Assembly (NCBI GenBank): GCA_030649165.1
Contig: JAUSGG010000263.1
Coordinates: 1 to 35,039 of the forward strand
Length of the DNA: 35,039 nucleotides
Direction of reading: 5' to 3'
Source of the DNA: Armatimonadota bacterium
Lineage (GTDB): Bacteria; Armatimonadota; UBA5829; JAUSEB01
This document shows, in pieces, positions 7,185 to 25,994 of the stretch. Position 1 is the stretch's first letter, and each line of letters opens with the position of its first letter. The notes under the pieces are model-generated. The model saw only the letters and a list, made by a program, of their open reading frames with translations. It was not told the DNA's origin and ran no database searches. A program made the position numbers and the translations under genes.

Positions 7185-8477
7185 TCACGCGCCATTCCAA
7201 ACGCCGTCTCCGGCGGCGATATACCAGGCCAGCAGTTCGCGGGTGATCTCACGGTTTATCCAGCAGCGCGTGCGATCGGTATCCAGAGTCGAAGCGCAGC
7301 GCAGGGCGCAGTCTCCGCCGCAGTGCCGGTAACAGAAACAGCCCTGGCATTTGGCGCGGCGCGCGTTCTGGCCATCCGCGAACTTCCGCAGGGCCGCGGG
7401 GTCGATTCTTACCTCCGTCGGTGTGGCCGAGCCTATCCTGAACGACTCGGTAAGCGGATGCCTGCGGTCGTGGGTCTCAAAGCAGGTCACCACGTCCCCC
7501 TCCGGTGTCACCACGAGAGCGTCTTCAGGCGCGCGACAGAATGACGAAGCCAACACCCACGGTCTGGCTCCGGAATAGAACAACGTCCGTCCCGCGGCTG
7601 CGGTCAACTGAAATGCTTCCAGAAAACCCCGGACAAAGCTATTCGCCTCACTCGCCGTGAGGTCGCCGTACTCGCCGCGTGATGATGTATAGCAGGGCTC
7701 GACCTGGAATACCTGGCAGTTGGTCTCGCTGCACAGGAACTCCATGCTTTCCGGAAGCCGGGCGAAGGACTCCGTGGTCGCCGTCATACGGATTCCGTAT
7801 GGCAGCCCGGCCTCGTCCAGGGCATGGACCGCTCCCATGACCTTGTCGAACGAACCTCGTCCGTCTGTCATTGGACGCTGGGCGTCCTGAACCTCGCGGA
7901 CTCCGTCCAGTGATAAGCTCAGACCGGTGAAGTTCTCCAGGATGAACTGCCGCCGGCGTTCGCTCCACATCCCGTTTGTCGCCATAGTGATCTCGCACGG
8001 AAGGTCTTTGCCCCGTGCGTAATCGACCGTCGATCGGAGAACCTTCCAGTTTACCGTCGGCTCGCCGCCTCCGTGAAAAGCAAGCTCAAACCTGTCCCTG
8101 CCCAGGGACTTGGCGTTTTCATAGCACGTGTCCACGACTTTTCGCGCCAGGTTCTCGTTCATATCCTGGCGGGTATGCTCGCCCGCGCGGGCGTAACAGT
8201 AGGAGCACCTGAGGTTGCACGCGGAAGTCATCAACAGGACCGCCGTGGTGGGACGATGCTCGTTCGAGGGAACCCACGGGCTGGGCGGCTCCGGGTCGGC
8301 GCTGTCGAATCCTATCTTCCTCAGGAACTTGTCGGCCGCGCTTGCGGGACGTCGGGGACGGGCCGATCGGTCGGCGAGCGCATACTCCGCCATAGCGGAA
8401 TTGCCAACGAATGCAAGCCGTAAGAGGGGCCGGTACACGATGAACTGGTCCTCGAAGGGAATCGAATATATCTCCAC
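7185..8477 (-). CDS. Radical SAM/SPASM peptide-maturase-like enzyme (rSAM3)
   Basis: This encodes 430 residues from GTG at 8477. The radical SAM [4Fe-4S] motif is CNLRCSYC (Cys87, 91, 94), followed by the GGGEP motif. A Cys-rich SPASM region for auxiliary clusters includes C377, C380, C382, C386, C390, C394 and C405. The first ~35 residues (FIVYRPLLRLAFVGNSAMA) resemble the N-terminal extension seen in SPASM enzymes that act on ribosomal peptides. SPASM enzymes make thioether, C-C or formylglycine-type modifications. Which one is made here is unknown; the likely substrates are the Cys-rich WD40 tails in the same operon. It is the last gene of the block, and a dispersed repeat lies in the 183-bp gap before it. 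Confidence 0.85.
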   Translation of the reverse strand: MEIYSIPFEDQFIVYRPLLRLAFVGNSAMAEYALADRSARPRRPASAADKFLRKIGFDSADPEPPSPWVPSNEHRPTTAVLLMTSACNLRCSYCYARAGEHTRQDMNENLARKVVDTCYENAKSLGRDRFELAFHGGGEPTVNWKVLRSTVDYARGKDLPCEITMATNGMWSERRRQFILENFTGLSLSLDGVREVQDAQRPMTDGRGSFDKVMGAVHALDEAGLPYGIRMTATTESFARLPESMEFLCSETNCQVFQVEPCYTSSRGEYGDLTASEANSFVRGFLEAFQLTAAAGRTLFYSGARPWVLASSFCRAPEDALVVTPEGDVVTCFETHDRRHPLTESFRIGSATPTEVRIDPAALRKFADGQNARRAKCQGCFCYRHCGGDCALRCASTLDTDRTRCWINREITRELLAWYIAAGDGVWNGA

Positions 8478-11505: not shown

Positions 11506-13197
11506 CTATTGCCCTTTGCTCTTGGGCAGCAGCACATAAGACTCCTGCCTGCCGGCTGGGACCTCGCGCCGCTCGACCAACCGGGCCGCGGAACGCTGGA
11601 AGATCAGCCGCCTGGACTGTTCGCCGCCGGCCCACTGATTGGGCGATGACGACGGCGCGGCGAAGTAGAACACTCCGCCGGGAAACCGCGCCCCAAGTTC
11701 GTCAAGCCGGCATTTGTCTTCCCCCACCCAGGTGATCAGCGCGGCTGACCGACCCTCCGCGATGACAGCCGGAGGATCGGCGGTTATCACGACGCCATTT
11801 GCCGGAACGCGACGCACGATTTCCCTAAGAAAAGCGCAGTCCCTCCTTGGAACCGCTGTTTCGGCGTCGTGGAGCGCGGAGTGAGGTCCTGCTGAGAACA
11901 GCGCGCCCAGAAAGACGATGGCCCACGTGACGACCACGGCCCCTCTCGGAATGCGCTCCTTCACCGTTCTGTGGACGGCATAAAGCCCAACTCCCGCCAA
12001 CAGCGCAAGAGGCGCTGCCCACGCGAGGACGAATCGCTCTCCGCCGGGATAAGCGTACGATCCCGCGATGTAGAACATCGGCACGGCGAACGCCGCCAAC
12101 GTCCAGCCCCACAGAGCGACGCCGCGGCGTGAGCCGGACTTCGATGCTCCGAGGGCGGCGAGCAACAGGCAAAAGAGCGCCGCCGGTTCGTGACGAAAGT
12201 AGCCGGAGACGGAAGCAATGTTTGCCGGAACGTTGCCGGCGCCGAAGCCCGCCCCTGCCATCCACGGCTCATAGCCGCGGGACACGACACCGAGATGCGC
12301 CGCCTGGGGGAGCAGACTCGCCGCGGCGGCTGCGAGCGGCCACATTGCTCGACGCAAAACGGCGCGTCCGCCGATACTCAGTATGAAAAGCGCGCAGACA
12401 GGAACCACGATGATGGCTTCGTTTCGGACCATCGCCGCCATGACCACTGACGCAGCCAACAGAAAGCCGGACCTTGCGCTTGGCTTTCGAGCGAAGACAA
12501 TCGCGGCCAGCGCCGCTAATGAGAACGTAAACACGCCGAGCGCCTCCGGAGCGCTCGTGCGCGACCATATCTGGTTCGCAGGCAGGCACAGAAACACCAT
12601 CGCCGCCGCCAGCCAGACTCGCGTTTTCGGGAACAGCGAGCAGGCTATAAGGGCGATGATACCCGTGGTCAGCAGCGAAAGCGCAAGGTTCAAGGCGTGC
12701 CCGGACCAGCGGGCGTATCCGCTGAGTCGCAGGGCTCCCGCGAGAAGCGTGGGCCAGCCGGCCGACCAGTGAGGGTACGAGCCGACATCGCACTTCAGGC
12801 GATCCCCCTGGAACGTTCCGCACGCCGCCACTTGCGCGCGCCCCTCATCGGCTATTGCGCGCGCGATTTGCAGATATGTGTGCTCGTCATAGTAGACTCG
12901 TTCGGTTGCGGGAATGGACGCCAGCCTGGCCGCAAGAGCCAGGAGAGCAGCCAGCGCAATCAGCCGCCATCCTCGCTTGAGCAAGCCGCCGCCAAGCTGC
13001 CGGATTTCCGCGTGGCACAGGGCCAGGCCCGCCAGCGTTGCAAGCGCCGCGGCCGCCCACGCCGCAGGGCCCAGCCACGCCAGGACCGAGGTCAGATGCG
13101 TTGGGTCCCTAAGCCAAAACCGCGCCCAGGAATATAACAGCGCCCACGCTGCCACGGCGCATACCGGCAGGCACAAGGACGACACCGCGCGAATCAT
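11506..13197 (-). CDS. PMT/ArnT-like integral membrane glycosyltransferase (GT-C fold)
   Basis: This encodes 563 residues with about a dozen hydrophobic segments over residues 1-440 and a C-terminal soluble part. The first extracytoplasmic loop carries YYDEHTY (D104-E105), the acidic pair typical of GT39/GT83-type enzymes that transfer sugar from polyprenyl phosphate to lipid or protein acceptors outside the membrane. The ATG overlaps the stop of the upstream GT2 gene as ATGA, with GAGGTG 8 nt upstream. Paired with a polyprenyl-phosphate sugar synthase-like GT2, it may glycosylate an exported product. The Ser/Thr-rich tails of the operon's WD40 proteins are candidate acceptors; that link is inference. 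Confidence 0.8.
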   Translation of the reverse strand: MIRAVSSLCLPVCAVAAWALLYSWARFWLRDPTHLTSVLAWLGPAAWAAAALATLAGLALCHAEIRQLGGGLLKRGWRLIALAALLALAARLASIPATERVYYDEHTYLQIARAIADEGRAQVAACGTFQGDRLKCDVGSYPHWSAGWPTLLAGALRLSGYARWSGHALNLALSLLTTGIIALIACSLFPKTRVWLAAAMVFLCLPANQIWSRTSAPEALGVFTFSLAALAAIVFARKPSARSGFLLAASVVMAAMVRNEAIIVVPVCALFILSIGGRAVLRRAMWPLAAAAASLLPQAAHLGVVSRGYEPWMAGAGFGAGNVPANIASVSGYFRHEPAALFCLLLAALGASKSGSRRGVALWGWTLAAFAVPMFYIAGSYAYPGGERFVLAWAAPLALLAGVGLYAVHRTVKERIPRGAVVVTWAIVFLGALFSAGPHSALHDAETAVPRRDCAFLREIVRRVPANGVVITADPPAVIAEGRSAALITWVGEDKCRLDELGARFPGGVFYFAAPSSSPNQWAGGEQSRRLIFQRSAARLVERREVPAGRQESYVLLPKSKGQ

Positions 13198-13922
13198 AAC
13201 CGTGTCACCTCAGGCGGAGGAACGGGGGTTCTCGTTCCTCTCGTGAACAGAGAATGAGTCAGCAGTGAGATGAGGTTCCACGCGCACTTGGGCGCGAACG
13301 GCCACAGGCGCAGACGGGACTTGCCGTAGAGCCGGCGATATTCGTGGCTCGGCGTATTCGTGACGCGATATCCTTTGCTCAGACACCGGATCACCATTTC
13401 CTGCTCGATGCAAAATCCGTCCTCGCGCAGTCCCAGGTCGCGAGCGACATCGGTTCTGACCGCTCTGAAGCCATTCTGCATATCCGTCAGCCTGGTTCCA
13501 AAAACCGCATTGACCAGCATCAGGATTGCCCGTGAACCGAGGGCTCTGAGCAGGTGTCCGTGGTCTCTGTCAAGCTCGTCACTGCCTCCGGTCGCCCGGC
13601 TGCCGATAACGAGGTCGGCGTCTCCGCGAGCGATCGGTTCGGTCAGCGCGGGAATGTCCTTCGGGCAGTGCGAGCCGTCGGCGTCTATGAACACCAGTAT
13701 CTCGGAGTCGGCCGTTGCGATTGCGTGCCGCGTCGCCAGTCCCTTGCCTCGGCGTTCTAACGAGACGACCCGCGCCCCGGCTTCATGCGCGGCGGCGCGG
13801 GTGCGGTCAGTGGAGCCTCCATCTATAACCAATGCTTCGTCCGCGTGATCCAGGCAGCCCCGAACGACGCGCGCGATGCTCTTCTCCTCATTCAACGTGG
13901 GAACAATCGCCGTTACTCGCAA
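13194..13922 (-). CDS. GT2 glycosyltransferase, polyprenyl-phosphate sugar synthase-like
   Basis: This encodes 242 residues from a TTG at 13922, preceded by GGGAGAG and overlapping the end of the upstream radical SAM gene by 10 bp. The open frame runs upstream to 14099, but those 59 residues are low-complexity, overlap the neighbouring gene and precede the conserved start of the fold (VTAIVPTLNEE). GT2 motifs are VIDGGSTDRT, the DxD-type DAD at 80-82 and the family-typical TDMQNGFRA. Dolichol-phosphate-mannose-synthase-like members load a sugar on polyprenyl phosphate for a membrane transferase. The next gene, joined by a 4-bp overlap, is such a transferase. Confidence 0.82.
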   Translation of the reverse strand: MRVTAIVPTLNEEKSIARVVRGCLDHADEALVIDGGSTDRTRAAAHEAGARVVSLERRGKGLATRHAIATADSEILVFIDADGSHCPKDIPALTEPIARGDADLVIGSRATGGSDELDRDHGHLLRALGSRAILMLVNAVFGTRLTDMQNGFRAVRTDVARDLGLREDGFCIEQEMVIRCLSKGYRVTNTPSHEYRRLYGKSRLRLWPFAPKCAWNLISLLTHSLFTRGTRTPVPPPEVTRL

Positions 13923-15319
13923 GCCTCTCCCGCCTTTCTCACGTCGCTTGGTCGAGCGACCACTTGACTTGATGATCTGATTCGCAGAGCGACTCTGGCC
14001 GGCAGAAGCGCCGCGCGCGGCCTGGCGTAGAAGCGGAGATAAGCCCGTCTTCGCCATCGGTCGATTTGGCGCTGCGTCAGAGCCTCCGTCGCCATACACG
14101 CCCGCTCCTGGGTGATGACCGTTCGGGAAGTCCCGTCACTCGCTCTCCAGGAATCGTACAACTCCGTCCCGGGGTAGGGGGCCGCGCAGTAGAACTGCGC
14201 GAAATCGACACCCATTGCGAGAGCCATATCGAGCGTTGCGCGCGCGGTCACGTCGGTCTCCCCGGGAAGTCCGAAGACAAAGTGACCCAATACGAGCAGG
14301 CCGGCCTCGCGCGCCCACTTCGCGGCCCGTATTGAATCCTCCACGGAATGTCCCTTGCGGCAGGCGTCCAGTATCGCCTGCGAGCCGCTTTCAAAACCGA
14401 ATCCGACCAGCCGGCAGCCCGCCGACCGCATTTCCCGCAGCAGGCCGGGGTCCACGCAATCGGCTCTCGTCGTGGCCACCCACGATATACCCTTCAACCG
14501 GCGCAACGCCTCGCAAACCGCAAAAGCGTGTTCGCGGTCCGCCGAAAAACACTCGGACCAGAGGAAGAAATCGCGGACGCCAAATCGGCCCCGCAGTTCC
14601 TCTATCTCTTCGGCGATGTCGATCGGGCGGCGCGTCCTCACAGATGATCCGTAGTAAAGCCTTTGCGCGCAGAACGTGCAGGAATGCGGGCATCCGCGGG
14701 ATGTCAGGACGGGAAGAAACGGTCGGCGACTGAACGGCATTCGGTAGCGCCCGACGTTTACCAGGTCCCAGTCCGGCCTGCCCAGCGACGACACATCCAG
14801 CTCCACCGGCCTGTCCGGGCCGTGGATGATCCGATTGCCCGCGCGAACACTCAATCCGGGCGCGGGACTAATGCTGCTGTCGTCGCCAATGGCCGCGTCC
14901 ACCGTCAGTTCCGGCTCTCCTCTGACGGCGAAATCGGCGCATTGGTCCCCGGAAAGGTATCTGTCCGGCTCCGCGGTCGGGTGAACTCCGATCACCCCGA
15001 TCCGGCACGCCGGCGCGCACCGGCGAATGCGGTCGATGGCCTCTATATCCGATGGAAACGTGGGCGCGGATACGGCGACGATCGCCGCATCGGGCCGAAA
15101 CGCGGTCACTACCTCGGGCAGGTCAGCCCACTTGACGTCGCCCACGGCGGCGTCGAGCAGCCGCGCGACGTGCCCGCGCATCCGCAGCCGGGCCCCAAGC
15201 ATAGCCAACGTGTAAGGGGGCCACGCGGTTCCCCAGAAGCTCGTCGGGTGGGTACACCGGCCTTCGCGCACATATCGCCGTCCGTCAGCGCACGGCGGGT
15301 TCAGCAGTAAGACGCGCAT
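13913..15319 (-). CDS. B12-binding-domain-type radical SAM protein
   Basis: This encodes 468 residues. The N-terminal ~150 residues (MRVLLLNPP ... DAAIVAVSAPTFPSDIEAIDRIR ... VIGVHPTAEP) have the Rossmann-like layout of cobalamin-binding domains of class B radical SAM enzymes, but no DxHxxG motif is seen, so lower-axial cobalamin coordination is doubtful. The radical SAM motif is SRGCPHSCTFC (C210, C214, C217), followed by the usual FGFESGSQ and HFVFGLPGET segments. Relatives methylate unactivated carbons or rearrange lipids and natural products. It lies between the WD40 genes and the two glycosyltransferases, 30 bp below WD40-A. Substrate could be a tail peptide, a sugar or a polyprenyl lipid; I cannot choose. 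Confidence 0.82.
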   Translation of the reverse strand: MRVLLLNPPCADGRRYVREGRCTHPTSFWGTAWPPYTLAMLGARLRMRGHVARLLDAAVGDVKWADLPEVVTAFRPDAAIVAVSAPTFPSDIEAIDRIRRCAPACRIGVIGVHPTAEPDRYLSGDQCADFAVRGEPELTVDAAIGDDSSISPAPGLSVRAGNRIIHGPDRPVELDVSSLGRPDWDLVNVGRYRMPFSRRPFLPVLTSRGCPHSCTFCAQRLYYGSSVRTRRPIDIAEEIEELRGRFGVRDFFLWSECFSADREHAFAVCEALRRLKGISWVATTRADCVDPGLLREMRSAGCRLVGFGFESGSQAILDACRKGHSVEDSIRAAKWAREAGLLVLGHFVFGLPGETDVTARATLDMALAMGVDFAQFYCAAPYPGTELYDSWRASDGTSRTVITQERACMATEALTQRQIDRWRRRAYLRFYARPRAALLPARVALRIRSSSQVVARPSDVRKAGEACE

Positions 15320-15349: not shown

Positions 15350-16669
15350 TCAGTTCGGATGCCAGTAATGCACTTGGTTGCAGGTGCAATAGGTATAGGT
15401 ATAGGTGTAAGTTCTCGGCGTTGATCTCGGGGAAGCAATGCTCCCCGGCACGCAGTTGCACACGCAGGTGGCTCCGGGCGGAATAGGCGAACCGCAGGGC
15501 AGGGTGTACGTGATCTCCTGGCCGGTCACGGTGTGCGTCTTGTACTGGACACCCTTGATGGTATCGTAGTTGACGCTGAGATCGAGCAGCGCTCCCATAT
15601 ACTTGCCACTTGGCAGTTCCCAACACCGGATTGTGCCGTCCGCGCTTCCGGACGCCAGATAACGCCCGTCCGGGCTTATCTCCAGCGCGGTCACGTCATC
15701 CGTATGTCCCTTGAGGGTCTTGCGCAGCTTGACGTCGCGCAGCGACCACAGCCGGATCATGTTGTCCCCCGAGCCCGAGATGAGCAACTTGCCGTCCGGG
15801 CTTACCTCAAGCGCGAGCGCTCCGCCTGCTCCGGCGTTTATGGTGTTGACCGGCGCGCCGTCGGGCAGGGACCAGAGCCTGATAGTTCCCACCGAGCCGC
15901 CCGTGGCCAGTGTGGTGTTGTCGGGCGTTACGGCAAGCGATACGACACTGTCGGCATGGCCTTCGAGCGTCCTGGGTTCGGACGAACCTTGCGCCGCATC
16001 CTGTCCGGTAGATGACGTTAGTTGGTCCACGCTCCACACGCGAACGCGGCCGTCTTTGCCCCCGGCTATGAGCAGCCTGCTCCTTCGGTCGAAGATCACG
16101 CATTTGGCCGCGTTGTCTATCGTAGTGATCACATCCAGACTGCTTGCGGACCTGAGTTGGATGTTGTTGTCAGTGACGCAGGCGAGTAGCTTGCCATCGG
16201 GGCTGGCGCCGACTCTCAGCATAGCGGTTGCGCTCGATGCAGGTTCACCATCCCCTTTGAAATCCGGCAGCTCCCTCACTGTCAGGCCGTCCGATCCGAC
16301 CGATGCGAGCATCTTGCTGCCCGGCATTATCTCAAAATCGGCAACGTCGAGGTCGTATTTCGCGCCCTTCTCAAGGGCTCCGTATGGCAGCGCCCAGCGT
16401 TTGATCTCGTTTCCGCCGCTGGAATACAAGCTCTTGGCGTCCGGACTGATCTCAAGCGCGGTTATTGTCTTGCTGTGAGCTTTGCCTACTCCGCCTTGCC
16501 CGCCGCTCTTGCACCCGGCCAGACCTGCGGCCATCGCCGAGGCGCCTGCCGCCGCGGCCAGAAACTCCCGCCTCGAAAGAGTCCATTTCCCATTCTCGCG
16601 GCTGATCGCGAATACTTCAGGCTTCTCTTCCTGACCTGGCTTTGTCGCCTTTCGTTTAGCCTCGCTCAT
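15350..16669 (-). CDS. WD40 protein A: Tat lipoprotein-like, seven-bladed propeller with Cys-rich tail
   Basis: This encodes 439 residues from ATG 16669 (GGAGAG just upstream); upstream in-frame starts would run into the WD40-B tail region and are rejected. Order: a cytoplasmic motif EVFAISRENGKWTLSRR, a Tat signal (SRREFL) ending in a lipobox-like LAGC, seven WD40-type blades, then the 50-residue Cys-rich tail. Blades 1-4 are the most degenerate of the four paralogues and lack GH/WD signatures; blades 5-7 are canonical. The linker of the tail is a striking Tyr/Thr alternation (RTYTYTYTYCTC). It probably ends up lipid-anchored on the outer face of the cytoplasmic membrane. It is the third of three tandem WD40 genes. 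Confidence 0.85.
   Translation of the reverse strand: MSEAKRKATKPGQEEKPEVFAISRENGKWTLSRREFLAAAAGASAMAAGLAGCKSGGQGGVGKAHSKTITALEISPDAKSLYSSGGNEIKRWALPYGALEKGAKYDLDVADFEIMPGSKMLASVGSDGLTVRELPDFKGDGEPASSATAMLRVGASPDGKLLACVTDNNIQLRSASSLDVITTIDNAAKCVIFDRRSRLLIAGGKDGRVRVWSVDQLTSSTGQDAAQGSSEPRTLEGHADSVVSLAVTPDNTTLATGGSVGTIRLWSLPDGAPVNTINAGAGGALALEVSPDGKLLISGSGDNMIRLWSLRDVKLRKTLKGHTDDVTALEISPDGRYLASGSADGTIRCWELPSGKYMGALLDLSVNYDTIKGVQYKTHTVTGQEITYTLPCGSPIPPGATCVCNCVPGSIASPRSTPRTYTYTYTYCTCNQVHYWHPN
15353..15502 (-). other. Cys-rich tail of WD40-A (candidate modified core)
   Basis: The tail has six Cys: LPCGSPIPPG, then CVCNC and PG, a 17-residue P/S/T/Y linker, then CTCNQVHYWHPN at the extreme C-terminus. 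The framing residues are the same in all four WD40 genes of the operon while linkers differ in length and sequence. Confidence 0.8.
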
Positions 16670-16704
16670 CTTCTCTCCGTCTCCTCCATCCTCTCGAACA
16701 GTTC

Positions 16705-18045
16705 TCAGTTCGGATGCCAATAGTGGACCTGATTGCAGGTGCAGTAAGTGTACGTTGTCGGCGTCCGCGGAGCCGAGCGAGCAGGTGTTGATGGGGCCGA
16801 CGAAGACAGCGTTCCCGGTATGCAGTTGCACACGCACACCGCCCCGGCCGGTATTGGCGACCCGCACGGAAGTGTGTACGTTACCGTTTGCCCCGTCACC
16901 GTGTCGGTAACCTTGTACTGTATCCCCTTCGCGTCACTCGGACTTGCGGCTATGTCTATGAGGCAGCCCAGCGGCTTCCCGTCGGGCAATGACCACCGCC
17001 TGATCGTCTTGTCCCAACCGCCCGAATAGAGTGTACTCCCATCTGGGCTTATCGCGACGCAATTCACGTTATTGGTGTGCCCGTTGAGGGTCTTCAGCGC
17101 AGCGCCATCGGGCAGCGACCACAACCTTAAGGTGTTATCGTAGCTGCCGGAGGCCAGAGTCTTCCCATCGGGGCTTACTGCGAGGCAGCTCACGGTGCCG
17201 GTGTGTCCTTCGACGGCTTTTGACGAGCCGTCTTCGGGCAGCCACAACCTTATGCTCTTGTCAGAGCTGACCGAAGCCAGTGTTTTCCCGTCCGGGCTCA
17301 CGGCGCAGCAGTACACTGTTCCGTCGTGCCCTTGGAAGGTGTTCAGTGGCGCGCCATCGGGCAGCGACCATTTTCTGATAGTTTTGTCGGCGCCACCTGT
17401 GTAGAGTGTCTTCCCGTCGGGGCTTATCGCGATGCAGTTCACGTTATCTGTGTGCCCCTCAAGGGTCTTCAGGAGCGCGCCATCAGGAAGAGACCACAGC
17501 CTTACTGTCTTGTCATCGCTGCACGACACCAGGATCTTGCCATCCGGGCTTATCGCGACGCAGTTCACCCAATCGCTGTGTCCATCGAGGCTCTTTAGCG
17601 CCGCGCCGTCGGGCAGCGACCATCGCCTGATCGTTTTGTCCCCACTCCCCGAATACAGTGTCTTCCCGTCCTTGCTGACCGCGAGCGAAAGCACTCCGTT
17701 GGGGTGCCCTTTGAGGGTGTTGACCAGAGCCCCTTCAGGCAAGGACCATATTTTGATGGTCTTGTCCCTGCCGCCTGAGAAAAGACTCTTGCCGTCGGGG
17801 CTTATCGCCAGAGCCCAAACCGCGCTTTCGTGGGCAAAGACGTTATCGCAGGACGCCTCGGATTCGACTTTCTTACCCTCTTCGGCCAAGGCGTGACCGG
17901 CGACTATCGCCCCGCCCAATGCCGCGCCCGCTTTGAGCAAATCCCGCCGGCTCAGCTTCCATTTGCTTCCGTCTCGGCTGATCGCGAATACCTCAGGATC
18001 TTCTTCCTGACTTCGTTGCGTCGGCTTTCGTTTGTTGTCAGTCAT
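16705..18045 (-). CDS. WD40 protein B: Tat-exported seven-bladed propeller with Cys-rich tail
   Basis: This encodes 446 residues. The N-terminus has EVFAISRDGSKWKLSRR, then a textbook Tat signal (SRRDLLKAGAALGGA) with an Ala-x-Ala cleavage site (HALA/EE). Seven regular WD40 blades follow, with starters FAHESAV, GHPNGV, GHSDWV, GHTDNV, GHDGTV, GHTGTV and GHTNNV. Blades repeat AISPDGKxLxSGxxDKTIRxWSLPDG almost unchanged, and the propeller is flanked by GIQYKVTDTVTGQTVTYT before the tail. WD40 propellers are binding scaffolds. The AGGAG site lies 10 nt before the ATG. It is the closest paralogue of WD40-C, 35 bp upstream, which suggests a recent tandem duplication. Confidence 0.88.
   Translation of the reverse strand: MTDNKRKPTQRSQEEDPEVFAISRDGSKWKLSRRDLLKAGAALGGAIVAGHALAEEGKKVESEASCDNVFAHESAVWALAISPDGKSLFSGGRDKTIKIWSLPEGALVNTLKGHPNGVLSLAVSKDGKTLYSGSGDKTIRRWSLPDGAALKSLDGHSDWVNCVAISPDGKILVSCSDDKTVRLWSLPDGALLKTLEGHTDNVNCIAISPDGKTLYTGGADKTIRKWSLPDGAPLNTFQGHDGTVYCCAVSPDGKTLASVSSDKSIRLWLPEDGSSKAVEGHTGTVSCLAVSPDGKTLASGSYDNTLRLWSLPDGAALKTLNGHTNNVNCVAISPDGSTLYSGGWDKTIRRWSLPDGKPLGCLIDIAASPSDAKGIQYKVTDTVTGQTVTYTLPCGSPIPAGAVCVCNCIPGTLSSSAPSTPARSAPRTPTTYTYCTCNQVHYWHPN
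16708..16872 (-). other. Cys-rich tail of WD40-B (candidate modified core)
   Basis: The last 55 residues hold LPCGSPIPAG, CVCNC, IPG, the longest linker of the four (Ser/Pro/Ala/Arg/Thr-rich) and CTCNQVHYWHPN. All six Cys positions are conserved with the paralogues. Confidence 0.8.
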
Positions 18046-18079
18046 TCTGCGTCATCTCCTTTATCCTGCTCAACAGCCT

Positions 18080-19438
18080 TCAATTCGGATACCAATAGTG
18101 AACCTGATTGCAGGTGCAGTGGGTGCTGGGAACAGGCACGCTCCTGGCCCCAGGCACGCAATTACACGTGCATATCGATCCGGGCGGAATAGGTGAACCG
18201 CACGGCAGCGTGTACGTCGTTGTTTGTCCTGTGACGGTGTCCGTGATCTTGTACTGGATGCCTTTCGCGTCACTCGTGCTTGCGGCTATGTCCATAAGGC
18301 AGCCTAGCGGTTTTCCGTCGGGCAGCGACCATCGTCTGATCGTCTTATCTGCACTTGCAGAATAGAGTGTGTTCCCGTCTGGGCTTATCGCGACGCAAGT
18401 CACGTTATTGGTGTGCCCGTTCAGGGTGTTCAGCGGCGCGCCGTCGGGCGGCGACCACAACCTTACGGTATTATCGTAGCTCCCGGAAGCCAGAATCTTT
18501 CCATCGGGGCTTACCGCGAGGCAGCGCACGGTACCAGTGTGTCCCTCGACAGCTTTCGACGAGCCGTGTTCAGGCGACCACAACCTTATGGTCTTGTCAT
18601 AGCTGCCCGAAGCCAGTGTCCTTCCGTCCGGGCTTACCGCGCAGCAGTACACCGTTCCTTCGTGTCCTTGGAGGGTTTCCAGCGGCGCGCCGTCAGGCAG
18701 CGACCATCTTCTGATCGTCTTGTCTCCTCCAGCCACATATAGTATCTTTCCATCGGGGCTTATTGCGAGGCAATCCACGTTATCTGTGTTCTCCCAAAGG
18801 GTCTTTAGGAGTTTGCCATCAGGAAGAGAAAACAAACTTACACTGTTGTCATGGTTGCACGACACTAGGGTCTTCCCATCCAGGCTTATCGCGATGCATT
18901 CCACCAGACTGGTACGTTCGGCAAGGCTCTTCGATGCCGAGTCGTCTTTTTTCTTGCTGGGGTCGGTCCGGCCGTATGGAGATGGGTTGAGGCTCTCCAA
19001 CGGTGTGCCATTAAGCGCTGACCAGCGTTTGATCACCTCGTCCGCGCCCCCCGAAAACACTGCCTTCCCGTCCTGGCTGATCGCGAGCGAACACACTTCG
19101 GCCTTATGCTCGATGGTCTTGACCAGCGCTCCTTCGGGCAAGGCCCATATCTTGATGGCCCCGTCCTTGCTGCCTGAGAAGAGCCTCTTGCCATCGGGGC
19201 TTATCGCTAGGGCCTGGACTCCTCCTTCGTGCGCGAAAACACCATTGCAGGACACATCCGATTCCACCTTCTTTCCCTCTTCCGCCAGGACACGTCCGCC
19301 AATAACGGCCCCGCCCAATGCCGCGCCCGCTTTGAGCAAATCCCGCCGGCTCAGCTTCCATTTGCTTCCGTCTCGGCTGATCGCGAACACCTCAGGCTCA
19401 GCCGCCCCGCGATTCTCGTCCATGTGATTCTTCGCCAT
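18080..19438 (-). CDS. WD40 protein C: Tat-exported seven-bladed propeller with Cys-rich tail
   Basis: This encodes 452 residues from ATG 19438, which has AGGAGG 8 nt upstream; ATG 19444 is only 2 nt from it. The N-terminus (EVFAISRDGSKWKL, SRRDLLKAGAALGGA, cleavage near VLAEE) is almost identical to WD40-B. There are seven blades. Between blades 2 and 3 is an added charged loop (NPSPYGRTDPSKKKDDSASK), absent in B. Blades 5-7 stay close to B, while blades 2-4 have diverged (HKAEV, ERTSLV and ENTDNV in place of canonical GH starts). The tail is the shortest of the four. It is likely exported and soluble or surface-associated, with a binding role. Confidence 0.88.
   Translation of the reverse strand: MAKNHMDENRGAAEPEVFAISRDGSKWKLSRRDLLKAGAALGGAVIGGRVLAEEGKKVESDVSCNGVFAHEGGVQALAISPDGKRLFSGSKDGAIKIWALPEGALVKTIEHKAEVCSLAISQDGKAVFSGGADEVIKRWSALNGTPLESLNPSPYGRTDPSKKKDDSASKSLAERTSLVECIAISLDGKTLVSCNHDNSVSLFSLPDGKLLKTLWENTDNVDCLAISPDGKILYVAGGDKTIRRWSLPDGAPLETLQGHEGTVYCCAVSPDGRTLASGSYDKTIRLWSPEHGSSKAVEGHTGTVRCLAVSPDGKILASGSYDNTVRLWSPPDGAPLNTLNGHTNNVTCVAISPDGNTLYSASADKTIRRWSLPDGKPLGCLMDIAASTSDAKGIQYKITDTVTGQTTTYTLPCGSPIPPGSICTCNCVPGARSVPVPSTHCTCNQVHYWYPN
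18083..18208 (-). other. Cys-rich tail of WD40-C (candidate modified core, shortest)
   Basis: The 42-residue tail has LPCGSPIPPG, CTCNC, VPG, a linker of only about ten residues without the Tyr/Thr run, then CTCNQVHYWYPN. It shows that the linker is dispensable while the two Cys blocks are kept. Confidence 0.8.
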
Positions 19439-19465
19439 CCCCATTCCCTCCTAAAAGCGTCCCCT

Positions 19466-20563
19466 TTATCTAACGTCTGACTTGACGCCGAAATTTCGGA
19501 CCGTCACCGGGAGCCGAACAGACCGCAAATCTCCCCCGGCCAGTTCCACAACCACTTCCGCCTTTGATTCCCCCAAAGGGACCGTGTCCCGGACATTGAC
19601 CTCGACCGGCCATCGCGTCAACCCTTCAACGCTCTCCCGCGACCCCAGACGCGCTTCCAGCCACTTGGCGGTGGTCGATACGCTTCCGGCCTCCACTCCC
19701 GGCGGGGCGGACAAGGTTACCTTCTCGTCCGCGCTGCGCCTCGATCCCGCTAACGAGATGAAAAGCGTCTCCGGATACAGTTTCGGAGTCCGCGGAACCT
19801 TGACATCGAGAACGAGCACGACCCTCGGCCAGTAAGGGTCGTTCGTATCGAATGTCGCGCTATATACGGACCTGCCCGCCTCTTCAGGCTCCGCGGACAT
19901 CGTGATTTCGGTCGAACCGCCCGGCGGGATAGACCCGTTTCCCGAGGTTGCGGTCGCGCACCTGCACGAGATCTGGCGCAGGTCGATCAGCAGCGGTTTC
20001 GCGCCTTTGTTCGTGACGCGGAACTGCCGCTTGACTGCCTCTCCCGGCCCGCGAACGTCCACCGTTTGGTAGAACTCTTGCAACTCCGCCGCTGCCGGCC
20101 TCGGCGCGCCCTGCGGCATTCGCAGGATGTGTCCGGTGAAACGCCGGGCCACCTCGTCCCACGACACCAGGCGCACTCCGCTGGAGTCCAGCCTTTCGAC
20201 CCCCGACGGTCCCCTCAACAGGTAGATTGCGTATTCGTCCGGAGACCGCTCGACGGCGACCACCGGCCCTTCTATCCCGCGCAGGTTCGCTGCTGTGAGA
20301 TCAGCCGTCTCAAGTTTCAGACCGATCTCCCGCGCGGCGCGTTTGATTGTCTCCAGCCCGCTCTTGCCGCTTCGGCACAGCTCGACAGCCTTGTTCATCG
20401 ACCGCGGCTTCGGCTCGATGCCCGCCGCGTCCGCGATCAAGAGAAGCGCTGCCGCTTCCCGATTCGGCGCCGCCATCAGTCGCATCTGGTCGGACGCCAA
20501 CGCAGTCGAGCCCAAAACGGCTGCGACAAGCGCCAATCCGGCCGCCGCGAACAATACCCTCAT
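19466..20563 (-). CDS. Secreted degenerate C39-like peptidase domain fused to DUF1573
   Basis: This encodes 365 residues with a signal peptide (LALVAAVLGSTALAS). Residues ~30-150 follow the layout of C39 cysteine-peptidase-like domains, but no catalytic Cys is seen at the expected helix start (NREAAALLLIADAAGI) and the expected His is Tyr (DEYAIYLL). It is thus probably non-catalytic. Residues ~165-260 match DUF1573, an Ig-like domain with F.VTNKG...PL and ISCRCAT followed by IPPGGSTEI. A second beta domain fills the C-terminus. The ATG overlaps the WD40-D stop by one base (TGATG), so expression is coupled. A role as an extracytoplasmic partner or binder of the mature WD40 proteins is inferred. 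Confidence 0.7.
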   Translation of the reverse strand: MRVLFAAAGLALVAAVLGSTALASDQMRLMAAPNREAAALLLIADAAGIEPKPRSMNKAVELCRSGKSGLETIKRAAREIGLKLETADLTAANLRGIEGPVVAVERSPDEYAIYLLRGPSGVERLDSSGVRLVSWDEVARRFTGHILRMPQGAPRPAAAELQEFYQTVDVRGPGEAVKRQFRVTNKGAKPLLIDLRQISCRCATATSGNGSIPPGGSTEITMSAEPEEAGRSVYSATFDTNDPYWPRVVLVLDVKVPRTPKLYPETLFISLAGSRRSADEKVTLSAPPGVEAGSVSTTAKWLEARLGSRESVEGLTRWPVEVNVRDTVPLGESKAEVVVELAGGDLRSVRLPVTVRNFGVKSDVR

Positions 20564-21897
20564 CAGTTCGGATACCAGTAATGGACCTTATTACAGGTGC
20601 AGTGCGTGTACGTGTAAGTCGTCGGCTGCACTCTCGGAGCCCGCGGAACGGCAACGCTTCCCGGCACGCAGTTGCACGTGCAGATGGCGCCGGGCGGGAT
20701 CGGCGAACCGCAGGGCAGAGTGTAGGTGATCCAGCCTCCCGACGCCGTTCGCGCGCGGTACCGAACTCCCTTCACTTTGGCCGAAGTGACCTCCAGATCG
20801 AGCAAGCATCGCACTACTTTGCGCGCGGACACCGACCATATCCTCAGGGTCCCGTCCTGCCCGCCGGAAACCAGGTATTTCCCGTCCGGCGTGAACGCTA
20901 CGGCCTTGACCCAGTCGTTGTGGCCGCGCAGCGTGACCAGCAGGGAGCCATCGGCGGTTGACCACAGCTTGACGGTCTTGTCGGCGCTCGCCGAGGCCAC
21001 GATCGCGCCGTCAGGCGAGACCGCGACCGCGTTGACCCAGCCCTCGTGACCGGAAAGCGTATGCGCCTCGCTGCCGTCGCTGACTCGCCACTTCTTGACC
21101 GTCTTGTCCGGACCGCAGCTAAACAGCGCCTGGCCGTCAGGCGAAAACGCAAGCCCCAGCACGGGCTGTTCGTGAGCAGCGATGGTCTTGATATTCGCTC
21201 CATCCGACACAGACCACAGGACGATCTTGCCGTTCTCACCGCCGGAAGCGAGCGTTCCGCCATCCGGACTGATTGCCAGCGACCTGACCCACCATTGGTC
21301 CGGTTGGAGAGTAGCGACCTCCTCGCGACTCGCGGTAGACCACCGCTTGACCACTCCGCTCTTCAGTGCGCAGAACAGAGACTGGCCGTCAGGTGTCGCG
21401 ACGATGTCGAAGATCGTCTCGTCCTGGTCGCTCGGAGCGGCGGTGCGTTTTCCGTCCGGTACGGACCAAAGAATCAGGGTCTTGTCGCTTCCTCCCGAGG
21501 CCAGAGTCTTCGTTCCCGGCAGAAACGCAACCGTGCGCACGAGATCGGTATGGCCCTTAATGGTCTTCATGTGCGCGCCGCTGGGCAGCGCCCAGAGTTT
21601 GACCGTGTTGTCCTCACTGCCCGATGCGATGTAATTGCCGTCCCCACTGATCGCGACTGACAATACGCTGCTCTTGTGAGCTTTTCCGCTCTCGCAGCTA
21701 GTCCTCGAAGCCGCCGACGCCTTGTCTTTCCCAGCCGCCACGGCCAGCGCCGCCGCGCCCGCGGCGGCGGCCCCGCCGAGCAACTCCCTGCGGCTCAGTT
21801 TCCACTTGCTTCCGTCCCGCTGCAGCGCAAACACCTGCGGCTCGGCATCGTCACCCGAGCCATCCTCCAACTCTCTCGTCCTTTCCTCATCAGCCAT
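20563..21897 (-). CDS. WD40 protein D: Tat-exported seven-bladed propeller with Cys-rich tail
   Basis: This encodes 444 residues with GGAGG 8 nt before the ATG. The N-terminus is QVFALQRDGSKWKLSRR, then the Tat signal SRRELLGGAAAAGAAALAVAAG with Ala-x-Ala near residue 60. Seven WD40 blades follow, with starters KAHKSSV, GHTDLV, DQDETI, PDQWWV, AHEQPV, GHEGWV and GHNDWV. The propeller is clearly diverged from A-C, yet the GVRYRAR...TYT spacer and the tail match them closely. It is the first WD40 gene of the operon, directly below the radical SAM/U32-like gene and translationally coupled to the C39-like/DUF1573 gene. Confidence 0.88.
   Translation of the reverse strand: MADEERTRELEDGSGDDAEPQVFALQRDGSKWKLSRRELLGGAAAAGAAALAVAAGKDKASAASRTSCESGKAHKSSVLSVAISGDGNYIASGSEDNTVKLWALPSGAHMKTIKGHTDLVRTVAFLPGTKTLASGGSDKTLILWSVPDGKRTAAPSDQDETIFDIVATPDGQSLFCALKSGVVKRWSTASREEVATLQPDQWWVRSLAISPDGGTLASGGENGKIVLWSVSDGANIKTIAAHEQPVLGLAFSPDGQALFSCGPDKTVKKWRVSDGSEAHTLSGHEGWVNAVAVSPDGAIVASASADKTVKLWSTADGSLLVTLRGHNDWVKAVAFTPDGKYLVSGGQDGTLRIWSVSARKVVRCLLDLEVTSAKVKGVRYRARTASGGWITYTLPCGSPIPPGAICTCNCVPGSVAVPRAPRVQPTTYTYTHCTCNKVHYWYPN
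20566..20718 (-). other. Cys-rich tail of WD40-D (candidate modified core)
   Basis: The last 51 residues: LPCGSPIPPG, CTCNC, VPG, a linker with Pro/Arg then TTYTYTH, and CTCNKVHYWYPN. Only the K for Q in the last block differs from the paralogues' framing residues. Confidence 0.8.
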
Positions 21898-21947: not shown

Positions 21948-23936
21948 TCAACTCGGGGATACTACCACTGCGTCTGACACTCGATCGTAATAATCCCGGC
22001 ACACACGGCAGCTATTGCACTTGTGGTCGCAGTTCAGCGTGGATGCAAAGAACTCTTCCTCGATCGGATATGGTTCCAGCGGTGATGCCGGTCCCCCGCC
22101 GATTTCGTCGGGCGTCATCTCGCCCGCCGTGACGTAGTTACCGAGCACGTAACGGTACATCGCGGGGTCTCTGAGAGTCGATCTCCCCACGAGTTTGAGT
22201 TCGTCGTAGAGCCCATCGTAGAGGCGCAAATGCTGCGGCAGGACCCAAGCGCCTGTCAACCTTAGCCACGGCTTCGACGCGAGAATGTCGGAACACAGCG
22301 ACTCCGGCCGCGCGAAGCCGTCGCCCATCTCGTGGAAATGCTGCACCCGCAGCGGACAACCCGGCAGGCACGCTTCATTGACGATCAGCCTGATCCGTCC
22401 GGCGAACGAATCCCGAAGCGACCTGAGGCCGGCCAGATTGCGCATCACGCGACTCGCGGGGACGAGCGCGTCACATACCCCGTCGATCATCACCGCCTGC
22501 AGCGGGTCGGCAATGTCCATCAGCACGGACGCGGTGATGCTCAGGTCGGGGATTTGCTCGCGAATACGGCGCGCCAGCGATAGGTTGGTGACCGTCACGC
22601 CGGTAATGCGGAACTCATCCGCCAGCCGCTTTAAGGTGTCGATCACCACCGGCGCCGTTTCTTCCACCGGACGCTGCAGAGTTATAGGGTTTACAAGCAC
22701 GGACACATCGAACAATCGGGCTTGCAGAAATTCGCTTACGCGCTCGGACGGCTGCGGAGGCCGTCCCGATCCGACAACCTCGCCGGGAAGTGGCAGGTAA
22801 ACCTCTTTGATGGAATCACCGAAGTCCCGCGCAAGATCCTCCCAAAACCCCATATCCTGATCGACGTACGGAATCACCCATAAACCGTCACGCTTGGGGC
22901 CGTCGGTATCCGGCTTGCGCGCGGCCCAGCCCGGACGAGTTCGGCTGCCCGCTTCCGGGAGAGCAAACGAGAAGTCTCCTGAACGCAGCCGCTTCATCGA
23001 TGCCGACACGCAGCCTCCATCGCACGCGTCGTTGGCCCGCCAGGGACAGGTCGCGCACTCCGGGTAGATACCGATTCGCCGGTAGGCGGCCAACTCCGCG
23101 GTCAGTTCGGCGCGAATCGTTGCGACGTCAGCGCCATCCTCCACCTCCGTCCGGCAAGTGGAAGCCAGGGGATAGCACGGCACTGCAAGCGAGTTCGGCA
23201 GTATGTCCGGCACGATGTTGCAGCTCTTGCCTATACCGGTGTTGACGTAGCCGGCGCTCTCCAGCCAGCCGTCGGGAAACATACACGGCACGAACCCGCA
23301 GTCGAAATCGATCCTTACGTCCGCCTCGGCGGCACGTTGGTTGAACTCTGCTATTGCCAGGCCCACCTCCGGGTAGCGCTTCGGATGCAAATAGCGGTTC
23401 GCCGAACTTGCGCAGGGGTGGGCCAGCCCCAGCCTGATTGACCGATTGAGCCCGTAGCGGTCGATCTGCTCCAGCAGAAAGTTGAGATCTGGCGCGCGGT
23501 TGTGTATGTTGAAACCAAGCGTCACCCGCTCACCCAGCGTTTTGCAGATGAGCGACTGCGCGGCGGCTTCCGCCTCACTTTGCTGACCGGGCGCGTTGAC
23601 ATTGATCAGCGCGATGATCTTCTCCCGCGGCGCGTCCCGAAGACAGCGCAGCGATGACTCAGGCATCATCCCGCTGGTGAAAACAAATACCCCGAACCCG
23701 CGTTCCAGCGCCGTTCCCACGAACGTCTCGAACTCCGGGTGGGCCGTCGGCTCGCCGCCCAGCAGCCGCGCCTGGTCGATTCCCGATCGCGACAGGCAAT
23801 CGAGAACTCGCCCAAACGTCTCCGGCGTCATAGGCCGCGCGGACGGGTAATGCTCCCGCGCCTGTTTGGCAAAGCAGTAGGGGCATCCGCGCTCGCAATC
23901 CAGTGTTATCGAGACATTAGCCATCGTCCCCACCAT
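21948..23936 (-). CDS. Radical SAM enzyme fused to a U32-peptidase-like domain (rSAM2)
   Basis: This encodes up to 662 residues; ATG 23936 or the nearby ATG 23924 may start it, both overlapping the end of the PqqD-like gene. The radical SAM motif is very close to the start (CERGCPYC, C14, C18, C21), followed by LLGGEPTAHPEF. A Cys-rich region near 295-310 (CATCPWRANDACDGGC) looks like an auxiliary-cluster motif. Residues ~340-662 resemble the U32 family TIM barrel: a run of beta strands (ITGVTVTNLSLAR, LSITASVLMD), then NEACLPGCPLRVQHF (C523, C527) and later C548. A terminal Cys block has C636, C640, C643 and C646. Known U32-like proteins bind [4Fe-4S] and oxidise or hydroxylate RNA or quinone precursors. 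The fusion suggests two redox steps on one substrate. Confidence 0.82.
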   Translation of the reverse strand: MVGTMANVSITLDCERGCPYCFAKQAREHYPSARPMTPETFGRVLDCLSRSGIDQARLLGGEPTAHPEFETFVGTALERGFGVFVFTSGMMPESSLRCLRDAPREKIIALINVNAPGQQSEAEAAAQSLICKTLGERVTLGFNIHNRAPDLNFLLEQIDRYGLNRSIRLGLAHPCASSANRYLHPKRYPEVGLAIAEFNQRAAEADVRIDFDCGFVPCMFPDGWLESAGYVNTGIGKSCNIVPDILPNSLAVPCYPLASTCRTEVEDGADVATIRAELTAELAAYRRIGIYPECATCPWRANDACDGGCVSASMKRLRSGDFSFALPEAGSRTRPGWAARKPDTDGPKRDGLWVIPYVDQDMGFWEDLARDFGDSIKEVYLPLPGEVVGSGRPPQPSERVSEFLQARLFDVSVLVNPITLQRPVEETAPVVIDTLKRLADEFRITGVTVTNLSLARRIREQIPDLSITASVLMDIADPLQAVMIDGVCDALVPASRVMRNLAGLRSLRDSFAGRIRLIVNEACLPGCPLRVQHFHEMGDGFARPESLCSDILASKPWLRLTGAWVLPQHLRLYDGLYDELKLVGRSTLRDPAMYRYVLGNYVTAGEMTPDEIGGGPASPLEPYPIEEEFFASTLNCDHKCNSCRVCRDYYDRVSDAVVVSPS

Positions 23937-24201
23937 TCACAAGCCACCCGTCGACCAGCCACTGGCGAACCGCGGACTCCACGACATCCGCCGCCCGGTC
24001 CGCGCCGATTCGTTCCATAGCGGAAATGATCTTGACCACTCGTTCGTATCCGACGTTTCTGCTCAGCAAGTCCCAGATCGCCGCCTCCGGGTAGCTCAGC
24101 GTCGCGCTGGCTCCGGTGTCTTGCCTCATCAGCAGCAATCCGTTCGACTGCGCGGCCCAGCTCACCTTCGCGCGGCATCTTACCTGTTTCCCACCGCTCA
24201 T
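23917..24201 (-). CDS. PqqD-like peptide-recognition protein (RRE), RREb
   Basis: This encodes 94 residues. The pattern (VSWAAQSNGLLLM...TGASATLSYPEAAIWDLLSRN, then helices and VRQWLVDGWL) fits the PqqD/RRE winged-helix fold, which binds leader peptides and presents them to radical SAM maturases. It overlaps the upstream rSAM1 stop as ATGA and the downstream rSAM2 start, so the three are a coupled unit. The likely ligand is the conserved N-terminal segment of the WD40 proteins; this is inference. Confidence 0.75.
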   Translation of the reverse strand: MSGGKQVRCRAKVSWAAQSNGLLLMRQDTGASATLSYPEAAIWDLLSRNVGYERVVKIISAMERIGADRAADVVESAVRQWLVDGWLVNGGDDG

Positions 24202-25565
24202 GTCGCCGCTCCGTCCCAGTCTTCCAGCGTGTCGGACGCGCGGAGCGCCAGACGCTCCATTTCCGTGCGGTCGCTCAGGAGTCGGTCAACCTGTTCGTCT
24301 CCCACGAGACCGCCCACAAGCCGGCAGGCGGCTATCAGCCTGGTCTGTACGCAGAAGTCATCGTATCGGTCCGGGTGTCCCGGGTAAGAGTGGTTGACGT
24401 GACACCCGCCCGCGCAATGCCGGCGAACGAAGCATTTCCGGCATCTGTCCGCACAACCGGTAAGAGCGCGGACCCTCTCGACGGCGGATTGGTCCAGCTT
24501 TACGCCATTCGCGGCGTCAACAGTGCCCACGTTAAGGTCGATCCCGCGCGATTGCCAATCCTCTTCGAGCAGGTAGCAGGCGCTGAGGCGGCCGTCCGGG
24601 GACGCGATGATGGTATCCGTGCCGACGGGACAGAAGCTGTGGCGCAATTCGTCGGTCGATGCCGCCGAATAGACCGCTCTGACGCCCGCCTCTGCCGCGA
24701 CTCTCGACGCGCGGATGAACGCTGTTGCGAATTCCCACGGGTCGGGGGGAGCCAGCCCGGCGGCATCGCTCTCGGGAGTGGGTTGCAGAACCTCGTAGTC
24801 AATCGATGACGGGTTGAGCTCTTCGCACATCCAGGCCGTTGACTCCTGGAGGTCTTTTGCGTTTTCGGCGGTCACGCAGGTCCTGACGCAGAGTTCGGTC
24901 GAGGACGCGGCAAGTCGCCGCGCGTTGGCCGCCACAGCCTCGAAAGTCCCCGCGCCGGACGAGGTGGGCCGGTAGCGGTCCTGGTAAACGGACTTGCCGT
25001 CGAGGGATAGGACCACGGAGTCTATGTAGTCGGACAGAAACGCTCGGGAATCATCGTCGAAACAGCCGTTTGTCGCAATCTCGAATCTGGCGGCAAGGCC
25101 GGCTTCCGCCGCCCTCCGCCGGGCGTGGTGAACGACCGCGCTCACGACATCCGGCGCGCAGAGTGGCTCACCGCCGAAGAAGTGGATTTCGAGAGTATCT
25201 ATGCCCGACTGCTTCGCATAGTCCGCCCACCAGTCTACAAGCGCGACCGCCGTATCCAGGTCCATCGTCCGGTCAGGGCAACTCGACGCGCCGAAACCGC
25301 AATAGACGCACTTGAGGTTGCAGGCCCTGGTGGGGATCACGCCCACGAACTGGGGGCGAGCCGGACCGCTGTTCGGAGATGGGACACGGGCCGGTTCGGC
25401 CTCGATCGCGCGCTTGATGGAGGCGAGCGATTCAGGCAGGCGCCGTGAATTGGACTCGCGCAAAGACGATACCGCCGCGCCATTGAGCAGCGCCGCGAGA
25501 TGATGCAGCGGCGAGTAGATCAGCCACTTGTCGATTATTGGAATGACAAATGTAGAATCCTGCAA
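24198..25565 (-). CDS. Radical SAM/SPASM peptide-maturase-like enzyme (rSAM1)
   Basis: This encodes 455 residues from TTG 25565, directly after the TGA of the upstream gene with GGAG 8 nt away. The N-terminal segment (FVIPIIDKWLIYSPLHHLAALLNGAA) parallels that of rSAM3. The radical SAM motif is CNLKCVYC (C82, C86, C89), then FFGGEPL. SPASM-region Cys are C371, C375, C378, C384, C388, C405 and C414 (CRKCFVRRHCAGGC). Enzymes of this build use auxiliary clusters to hold the peptide substrate or accept its electron. It is the second gene of the operon, between two PqqD-like genes. Confidence 0.87.
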   Translation of the reverse strand: MQDSTFVIPIIDKWLIYSPLHHLAALLNGAAVSSLRESNSRRLPESLASIKRAIEAEPARVPSPNSGPARPQFVGVIPTRACNLKCVYCGFGASSCPDRTMDLDTAVALVDWWADYAKQSGIDTLEIHFFGGEPLCAPDVVSAVVHHARRRAAEAGLAARFEIATNGCFDDDSRAFLSDYIDSVVLSLDGKSVYQDRYRPTSSGAGTFEAVAANARRLAASSTELCVRTCVTAENAKDLQESTAWMCEELNPSSIDYEVLQPTPESDAAGLAPPDPWEFATAFIRASRVAAEAGVRAVYSAASTDELRHSFCPVGTDTIIASPDGRLSACYLLEEDWQSRGIDLNVGTVDAANGVKLDQSAVERVRALTGCADRCRKCFVRRHCAGGCHVNHSYPGHPDRYDDFCVQTRLIAACRLVGGLVGDEQVDRLLSDRTEMERLALRASDTLEDWDGAAT

Positions 25566-25994
25566 TCAAGGGTCTCCATCGGCGTCGGGGTGGGCGTTCC
25601 TCGGGGCGCACAATCCCCGTCGAACCAGGGCCAGAAAGACCTTCTTTGCCGTCTCAAAAGCGCTGTCCGACTGCATGCTCCATTGGCGCGCCAATTGTGA
25701 GGATATCGACAGCAGCGAAGCGTTGCCGTCGAAATGGTCTATGATGAATGATTGTGGTGAATCTGCCTGAACGCAATAGCCGGCCTGGTCATCGTTGGCC
25801 GCGCGGACGGTGAGCCGGCCTTCCGAGCGGTCAACCAGCGTTTTCTCAGCGAGGGCCGGGGTCATCTGTCCCAGCGTTTCGTCGGAAACAGTCCATAGGT
25901 CCGCGAGCTTGTAATTCGGCTTTCCATGCGCTTCTTCGAACGCCGCAATCGTCTCTGATATAAGCGATTTCAGGAAACTCCGCCTGTTGATCAT
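25566..25994 (-). CDS. PqqD-like protein with RRSFLK N-terminus (RREa)
   Basis: This encodes 142 residues with GGAG 9 nt before the ATG. The C-terminal ~75 residues (SFIIDHFDGNASLLSISSQL...AFETAKKVFLALVRRGLC) fit the PqqD/RRE fold. The N-terminus MINRRSFLKSLISETIAAFEEAHGKP starts like a Tat signal but lacks the hydrophobic core, so it should form an amphipathic helix and stay in the cytoplasm. It is the first gene of the operon. Possible roles are leader-peptide binding or acting as a chaperone for the Tat-type substrates; both are inference. Confidence 0.65.
   Translation of the reverse strand: MINRRSFLKSLISETIAAFEEAHGKPNYKLADLWTVSDETLGQMTPALAEKTLVDRSEGRLTVRAANDDQAGYCVQADSPQSFIIDHFDGNASLLSISSQLARQWSMQSDSAFETAKKVFLALVRRGLCAPRNAHPDADGDP

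Follow-up and report, generated by a model that had tools for sequence, protein, structure and literature searches.

A portable cysteine-rich C-terminal tail on Tat-signal propeller proteins, a probable substrate of co-occurring radical SAM maturases

To our knowledge, most known cases of peptide maturation by radical SAM enzymes concern free peptides, with QhpC as the known protein exception. In the QhpC/QhpD system a SPASM radical SAM enzyme crosslinks the cysteines of a protein in the cytoplasm prior to export; QhpC is the ~9 kDa subunit of quinohemoprotein amine dehydrogenase, its leader is cut off, and it is exported by an ABC transporter (PMC7876137). The CteB and freyrasin PapA-PapB systems form Cys thioethers, with RREs binding the leader (PMC8326336). 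The stretch of DNA analyzed here, henceforth the window (35,039 nucleotides, part of a 5.48 Mb MAG), contains a cassette in which a tail on folded propellers with a Tat signal, rather than a free peptide, is the presumed substrate.

The cassette is a ~19 kb minus-strand operon of 13 co-directional genes which runs from 25994 to 7185, with mostly short gaps or overlaps between them (Table 1). In order from 25994 these encode an RRE/PqqD-like protein, rSAM4, rSAM3, WD40 protein D, a DUF1573 protein, WD40 proteins C, B and A, a B12-binding radical SAM protein, a family 2 glycosyltransferase, a PMT-like glycosyltransferase, rSAM2 and rSAM1. The B12-binding radical SAM protein is also present in the cassette L015 of Candidatus Zipacnadia, and the pair of glycosyltransferase genes (11506-14099) is common to the window, L015 and L104; this pair could glycosylate the Ser/Thr/Pro-rich linkers of exported tails. 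The DUF1573/HYDIN-like Ig protein (19466-20563, minus strand), encoded between WD40 genes D and C, has an N-terminal region which by eye has the appearance of a degenerate C39-peptidase-like domain.

Table 1. Coordinates of genes and tails of the cassette in the window.
Feature	Position	Strand	Remarks
Stand-alone RRE/PqqD-like protein	25566..25994	-	142 residues; predicted fold matches RRE structures
rSAM4	24198..25565	-	radical SAM/SPASM protein
rSAM3	21948..23936	-	MoaA-like radical SAM N-half and C-terminal extension without assigned function
WD40 protein D	20563..21897	-	leader PQVFALQRDGSKWKLSRRELL (Tat RR), propeller, tail
Tail of D	20566..20727	-	TYTLPCGSPIPPGAICTCNCVPG-linker-CTCNKVHYWYPN
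WD40 protein C	18080..19444	-	AF2 model: 28 propeller strands, 7 blades
Tail of C	18083..18217	-	TYTLPCGSPIPPGSICTCNCVPG-linker-CTCNQVHYWYPN
WD40 protein B	16705..18045	-	
Tail of B	16708..16881	-	TYTLPCGSPIPAGAVCVCNCIPG-linker-CTCNQVHYWHPN
WD40 protein A	15350..16669	-	start at MSEAKRK; Tat signal, then lipobox-like LAGC
Tail of A	15353..15511	-	TYTLPCGSPIPPGATCVCNCVPG-linker-CTCNQVHYWHPN
B12-binding radical SAM protein	13913..15319	-	HpnJ/BchE-like below cut-off
Family 2 glycosyltransferase	13194..14099	-	true start inside ORF
PMT-like membrane glycosyltransferase	11506..13197	-	
rSAM2	8661..11456	-	SPASM-type radical SAM half fused to HemN/HutW-like radical SAM half
rSAM1	7185..8477	-	radical SAM/SPASM maturase, PapB/SCIFF/QhpD-like below NCBIfam cut-offs

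All four WD40 proteins possess a conserved leader (PxVFAIxR...KWxLSRR) ahead of a Tat signal, a seven-bladed propeller and a six-Cys C-terminal tail with the consensus LPCGSPIPxGxxCxCNCxPG-linker-CTCNxVHYW[YH]PN, in which C1 lies in LPCGS, C2-C4 in CxCNC and C5-C6 in CTC. Pfam searches with whole tail proteins mostly recover WD40 again. The first-pass annotation had proposed that the tail blocks are almost unchanged between the paralogues and that selection acts on them more than on the propeller. The alignments bear out the former, with 81-94% identity between tail blocks as against 33-42% between propellers (73% for the B-C pair). The latter is supported by pairwise dN/dS, which is 0.009-0.126 over the 36 tail codons, where pS is 0.44-0.73 and thus near saturation, versus 0.30-0.59 over the propellers (pairs where dS is defined), and by the family-wide conservation of the core cysteines described below; purifying selection is much stronger on the tail than on the propeller. 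Since the tail synonymous sites have diverged, selection and not recent gene conversion maintains the identity of the tails, and conversion as its source can be ruled out.

The twin-arginine pair is invariant in 35 of 35 aligned members, and TIGR01409 (Tat signal) scores above its cut-off in protein B; by their N-terminal signal the tail proteins would thus be Tat substrates with predicted export. A lipobox-like Cys follows the Tat signal in A (15350-16669) and in L009, L013, L018, L032 and L033, and is absent in B, C and D, which suggests that some members are Tat lipoproteins. In the AF2 model of protein C most of the propeller is predicted with pLDDT >90. The pre-tail and core follow as three strands of low confidence (pLDDT 50-79), the core being a weak strand (pLDDT 50-70), and the distal tail is disordered. 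If this weakly modeled core strand is correct, C2, C3 and C4 would share one of its faces.

Per-position conservation over many homologues, which the first-pass annotation had named as a check, places the core cysteines near the top: among 35 full-length members, a set partly collected with the pattern C[TV]CNC[VI]PG and hence biased toward them, the four core cysteines occupy ranks 2-5 out of 425. The 18 tails obtained independently of this pattern (by profile, rSAM1 or plasmid) have C2 and C3 in 18/18 and C1 and C4 in 17/18; most positions near the core cysteines vary more in this set, with one Pro and the Val after C4 also at 18/18. The near-invariance claimed for the six-Cys tail therefore holds within A-D and fails family-wide, where the near-invariant part is the four-Cys core. 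Downstream of the core lie distal units of the form C-[T/S/G]-C-x-x-[V/I/D/H], which range in number from none in L137 (8008-9186) to >10 in L041, L133 and L135, so that the distal cysteines number from 0 to >20 across the family, and a fixed six-Cys motif is ruled out. These units are nevertheless constrained, with C-[T/S]-C in 127 of 163 and V/I/D/H at +3 in 143 of 163. Loss of single tail cysteines in homologues that keep the maturases, which the first-pass annotation had named as refuting its reading, is confined in the core to L111, where C1 and C4 are lost and rSAM1 is kept; for the distal pair, which varies freely, the objection does hold.

Several other features of the tails deserve mention. 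In L041 (8960-10459), L133 (7230-8969) and L135 (952-2637) they have grown into long Cys/Asp/Gly-rich CxC repeats such as GCSCVSDTGCSCVSD. A Peptidase S74 (endosialidase chaperone) domain directly follows the CTCIPV tail end of WD40 proteins in L020 (10250-10675), L029 (10265-10624) and L110 (9782-10144); as S74 domains cut themselves off at their own N-terminus, the tail would become the mature C-terminus in these proteins. In L023 (10262-10663) and L026 (10250-10624) the tail is followed by a C-terminal extension which starts with CQAHxxLD and has no significant Pfam match. A formylglycine site, with the motif CxPxR, was rejected for the tail, since CGSP does not fit it.

The distribution of related tails is sporadic and covers at least eight phyla. 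Scanning GTDB genomes with the tail recovered 34 loci from Acidobacteriota, Armatimonadota, Nitrospirota, Desulfobacterota, Verrucomicrobiota, Bacteroidota, Planctomycetota, Pseudomonadota and Aminicenantes. In profile searches the tail-positive genomes amounted to 10/250 in the order of G103, 3/291 in the phylum of the window, 7/297 in the phylum of G118, 3/241 in the phylum of G106 and 1/200 in the class of the Nitrospira genome. No tail was found in any of the 100 nearest relatives searched; Candidatus Zipacnadia, with its tail cassette L015, belongs to the window's own phylum, Armatimonadota. Chlorohelix allophototropha, a cultured member of the Chloroflexota, carries a YW-type cassette (see below) on a 241 kb plasmid (L137, NZ_CP128402.1 226368-241389), near the end of the plasmid record and adjoining IS21 genes, a location that makes mobility plausible. 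The plasmid cassette comprises rSAM1, rSAM3, rSAM4 and RRE-like genes without rSAM2, together with two tails ending in HYW[YH]PN, the second of which, with the same leader, is borne by a body that has no Pfam match and no detectable propeller homology. Hence, the tail is portable from one protein body to another. A phage origin was discounted, as no match was found in viral contigs. No NCBIfam model covers the tail (seven tails searched, E up to 5, no relevant match), and no Pfam family or paper was found that describes the motif or its combination with radical SAM enzymes.

In most loci where the contig extends far enough, the tail gene has an rSAM1 homologue as its neighbor, and rSAM1 is the partner common to nearly all tail systems; in L011, L036, L040 and L041 no rSAM was found within the sequence available around the tail. 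The reverse search by rSAM1 gave matches in 13 of 250 genomes of one order, nine of them already tail-positive. Among the four new ones, L133 and L135 have, next to rSAM1, a CxC-repeat tail that had escaped the tail search, L134 has a broken rSAM1, and L136 a divergent rSAM1 with no tail nearby. In G122 the tail and rSAM1 are on different contigs, and in G335 the match is rSAM2. The rSAM1 alignment displays CxxxCxYC and seven further invariant cysteines, with the SPASM cysteines present; rSAM1 thus has the features of a radical SAM maturase (CxxxCxxC and SPASM cysteines), along with Pfam and NCBIfam matches. Its NCBIfam neighbors are the PapB (best), Nif11, SCIFF and QhpD maturases, all far below cut-off (119.3 against 340 bits for PapB NF047865, 105.7 against 425 bits for SCIFF TIGR03974). 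The minimal systems show no conserved extra partner, no family occurring in more than 3 among 47 flanking proteins.

The terminus of the tail tracks the enzyme complement. Tails ending in Y[W/Y/R][Y/H/R]P[N/T] or YWY (YW-type) are accompanied by rSAM3 and rSAM4, in most cases by rSAM2 and frequently by the RRE-like protein, and those ending in CTCVPV, VRCR and similar by rSAM1 alone. In a whole-genome search of 45 tail-bearing genomes, rSAM3 at >=140 bits was found in 11/13 YW-type genomes versus 0/32 others (Fisher p=8e-9, to be read as a guide only, because the end-motif classes were set after the loci were viewed and the sequences are related, with phylogeny ignored); at a 50-bit threshold the counts are 12/13 versus 2/32. 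The two YW-type genomes missed at >=140 bits are G101, where the tail gene is at a contig end, and G308, with a 73-bit match in the locus. In the rSAM tree the YW-type systems fall in two separate rSAM1 clades plus L107; L113, nested inside a YW-type group, has lost both the YW terminus and rSAM3, and the Chlorohelix plasmid, found later, fits the pairing.

The RRE-like protein was found only in YW-type cassettes. Its sequence match to PqqD is weak (PDB 3g2b, E=0.0035; Pfam PqqD, E=0.07 in a homologue). The AF2 model of 25566-25994 (pLDDT 77) matches RREs (lasso B1, TbiB1, PqqD, PbtF, ThcOx) at probability 1.00, with target TM of 0.6-0.8 to small stand-alone RREs (0.7-0.8 for TbiB1, lasso B1 and PqqD); ranked by E-value, the first match is a methyltransferase with a similar subdomain. 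It is therefore predicted to fold like a RiPP recognition element.

The account of the documented sequence pattern, selection, co-occurrence and portability that we hold probable is that a portable tail is modified in the cytoplasm by radical SAM maturases and the protein is then exported folded by Tat. The protein would be made with an N-terminal leader and Tat signal and a C-terminal Cys tail, and the SPASM radical SAM maturases would modify the latter while the body folds. In all systems rSAM1 would act, with rSAM3/4, often rSAM2, and the stand-alone RRE-like protein added for YWxP[N/T] tails. Cys thioether crosslinking, as in ranthipeptides and QhpC, is the most likely fate of the CxCxx[V/I/D/H] units, and YWxPN probably either forms a second site of modification or serves as a docking signal of rSAM3/4. 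Tat would then export the folded, modified protein, which in some species would be a lipoprotein, and outside the membrane the tail may serve as a surface-displayed crosslinked tag or a cofactor. Counting against the tail as substrate are the unfixed distal Cys number, the one Chlorohelix tail without distal CxC, the core-Cys loss in L111, L136 with no tail near its divergent rSAM1, and L011, L036, L040 and L041 with no rSAM in the sequence available.

The first-pass annotation had left crosslinking, metal binding and anchoring open; because the tails co-occur with radical SAM and RRE-like genes, crosslinking would be favored, with the other two less probable on these genomic grounds. A metal or Fe-S site, with Cu(I), Zn or a cluster coordinated by the CxCxC core strand and distal CxC units and with the radical SAM genes acting on another target, could accommodate the CxC spacing, the variable unit number as in metal-binding tails, Tat export of folded cargo and the one-faced C2-C4 of the low-confidence core strand; it is unlikely, however, as it leaves unexplained the reciprocal rSAM1 link, the RRE-like fold and the pairing of a non-Cys YWxPN terminus with rSAM3/4. 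We consider it quite improbable that the tail serves chiefly for anchoring or sorting, being attached after export to the envelope, where its cysteines would form disulfides or covalent links: no gene for a sortase-like or dedicated anchoring protein was seen to recur around the tails (no family in more than 3 among the 47 flanking proteins) and the lipobox-like signals of several members would make a second anchor redundant, even if the C-terminal position, the Ser/Thr/Pro- or Gly-rich linkers and the membrane glycosyltransferases in the window, L015 and L104 are consistent with such a role. Similarly improbable is a tail that only docks radical SAM enzymes which modify the propeller or another protein, despite the resemblance of a near-invariant core beside variable distal units to a docking motif plus substrate and the tracking of enzymes by YWxPN, given that one tail is joined to a body in which no propeller homology was detected and that conservation in the propeller falls far short of that in the tail core, so that no common body target is seen, and that the distal CxC repeats are constrained as if substrates.

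Returning to the tail as the modified substrate, the cassette is probably mobile, with one copy on a plasmid, and is spread over many phyla. Because the tail divides into a core, distal CxC units and a YWxPN end that goes with a particular set of enzymes, the assignment of enzymes to residues is directly testable. A bolder version, which we offer as a tentative possibility, is that the cassette forms a transmissible tagging system. A single leader and a single Cys/YWxPN tail could be grafted on unrelated folds, with thioether-stapled CxC units and a Tyr/Trp-derived modification at YWxPN made in the extracytoplasmic module by up to five radical SAM proteins; the outcome would be a RiPP on a folded exported protein and, conceivably, a new protein-derived redox cofactor.

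Set beside a RiPP-type system, the cassette lacks the short precursor peptide, since in essentially all loci the tail forms part of an exported protein of ~440 aa or more, and an RRE is represented by the predicted fold of 25566-25994 in YW-type cassettes only. The likeness to QhpC/QhpD extends to QhpD being among the nearest NCBIfam models to rSAM1 and rSAM4 (73.5 and 100.8, respectively, against the 453-bit cut-off of TIGR03906). Unlike in QhpC, the Cys stretch here lies at the C-terminus of a ~45 kDa protein with a Tat signal, and as many as five radical SAM proteins accompany it. The ranthipeptides (SCIFF/CteA-CteB, PapA-PapB) share a Cys-rich substrate and a SPASM maturase with an RRE; PapB is the best model for both rSAM1 and rSAM4, and CteB the nearest solved structure to rSAM4 (5wgg, E=7.8e-20). 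However, their substrates are short free peptides, whereas the tail is on a large protein and its CxCxx[V/I/D/H] spacing is not the ranthipeptide pattern. Finally, PqqD/PqqE and other stand-alone RREs likewise place a small RRE-like protein beside a radical SAM enzyme; unlike the matched RREs, the version described here has a conserved N-terminal RRxFFRxL segment with no noted counterpart, and its presumed substrate is a large exported protein.
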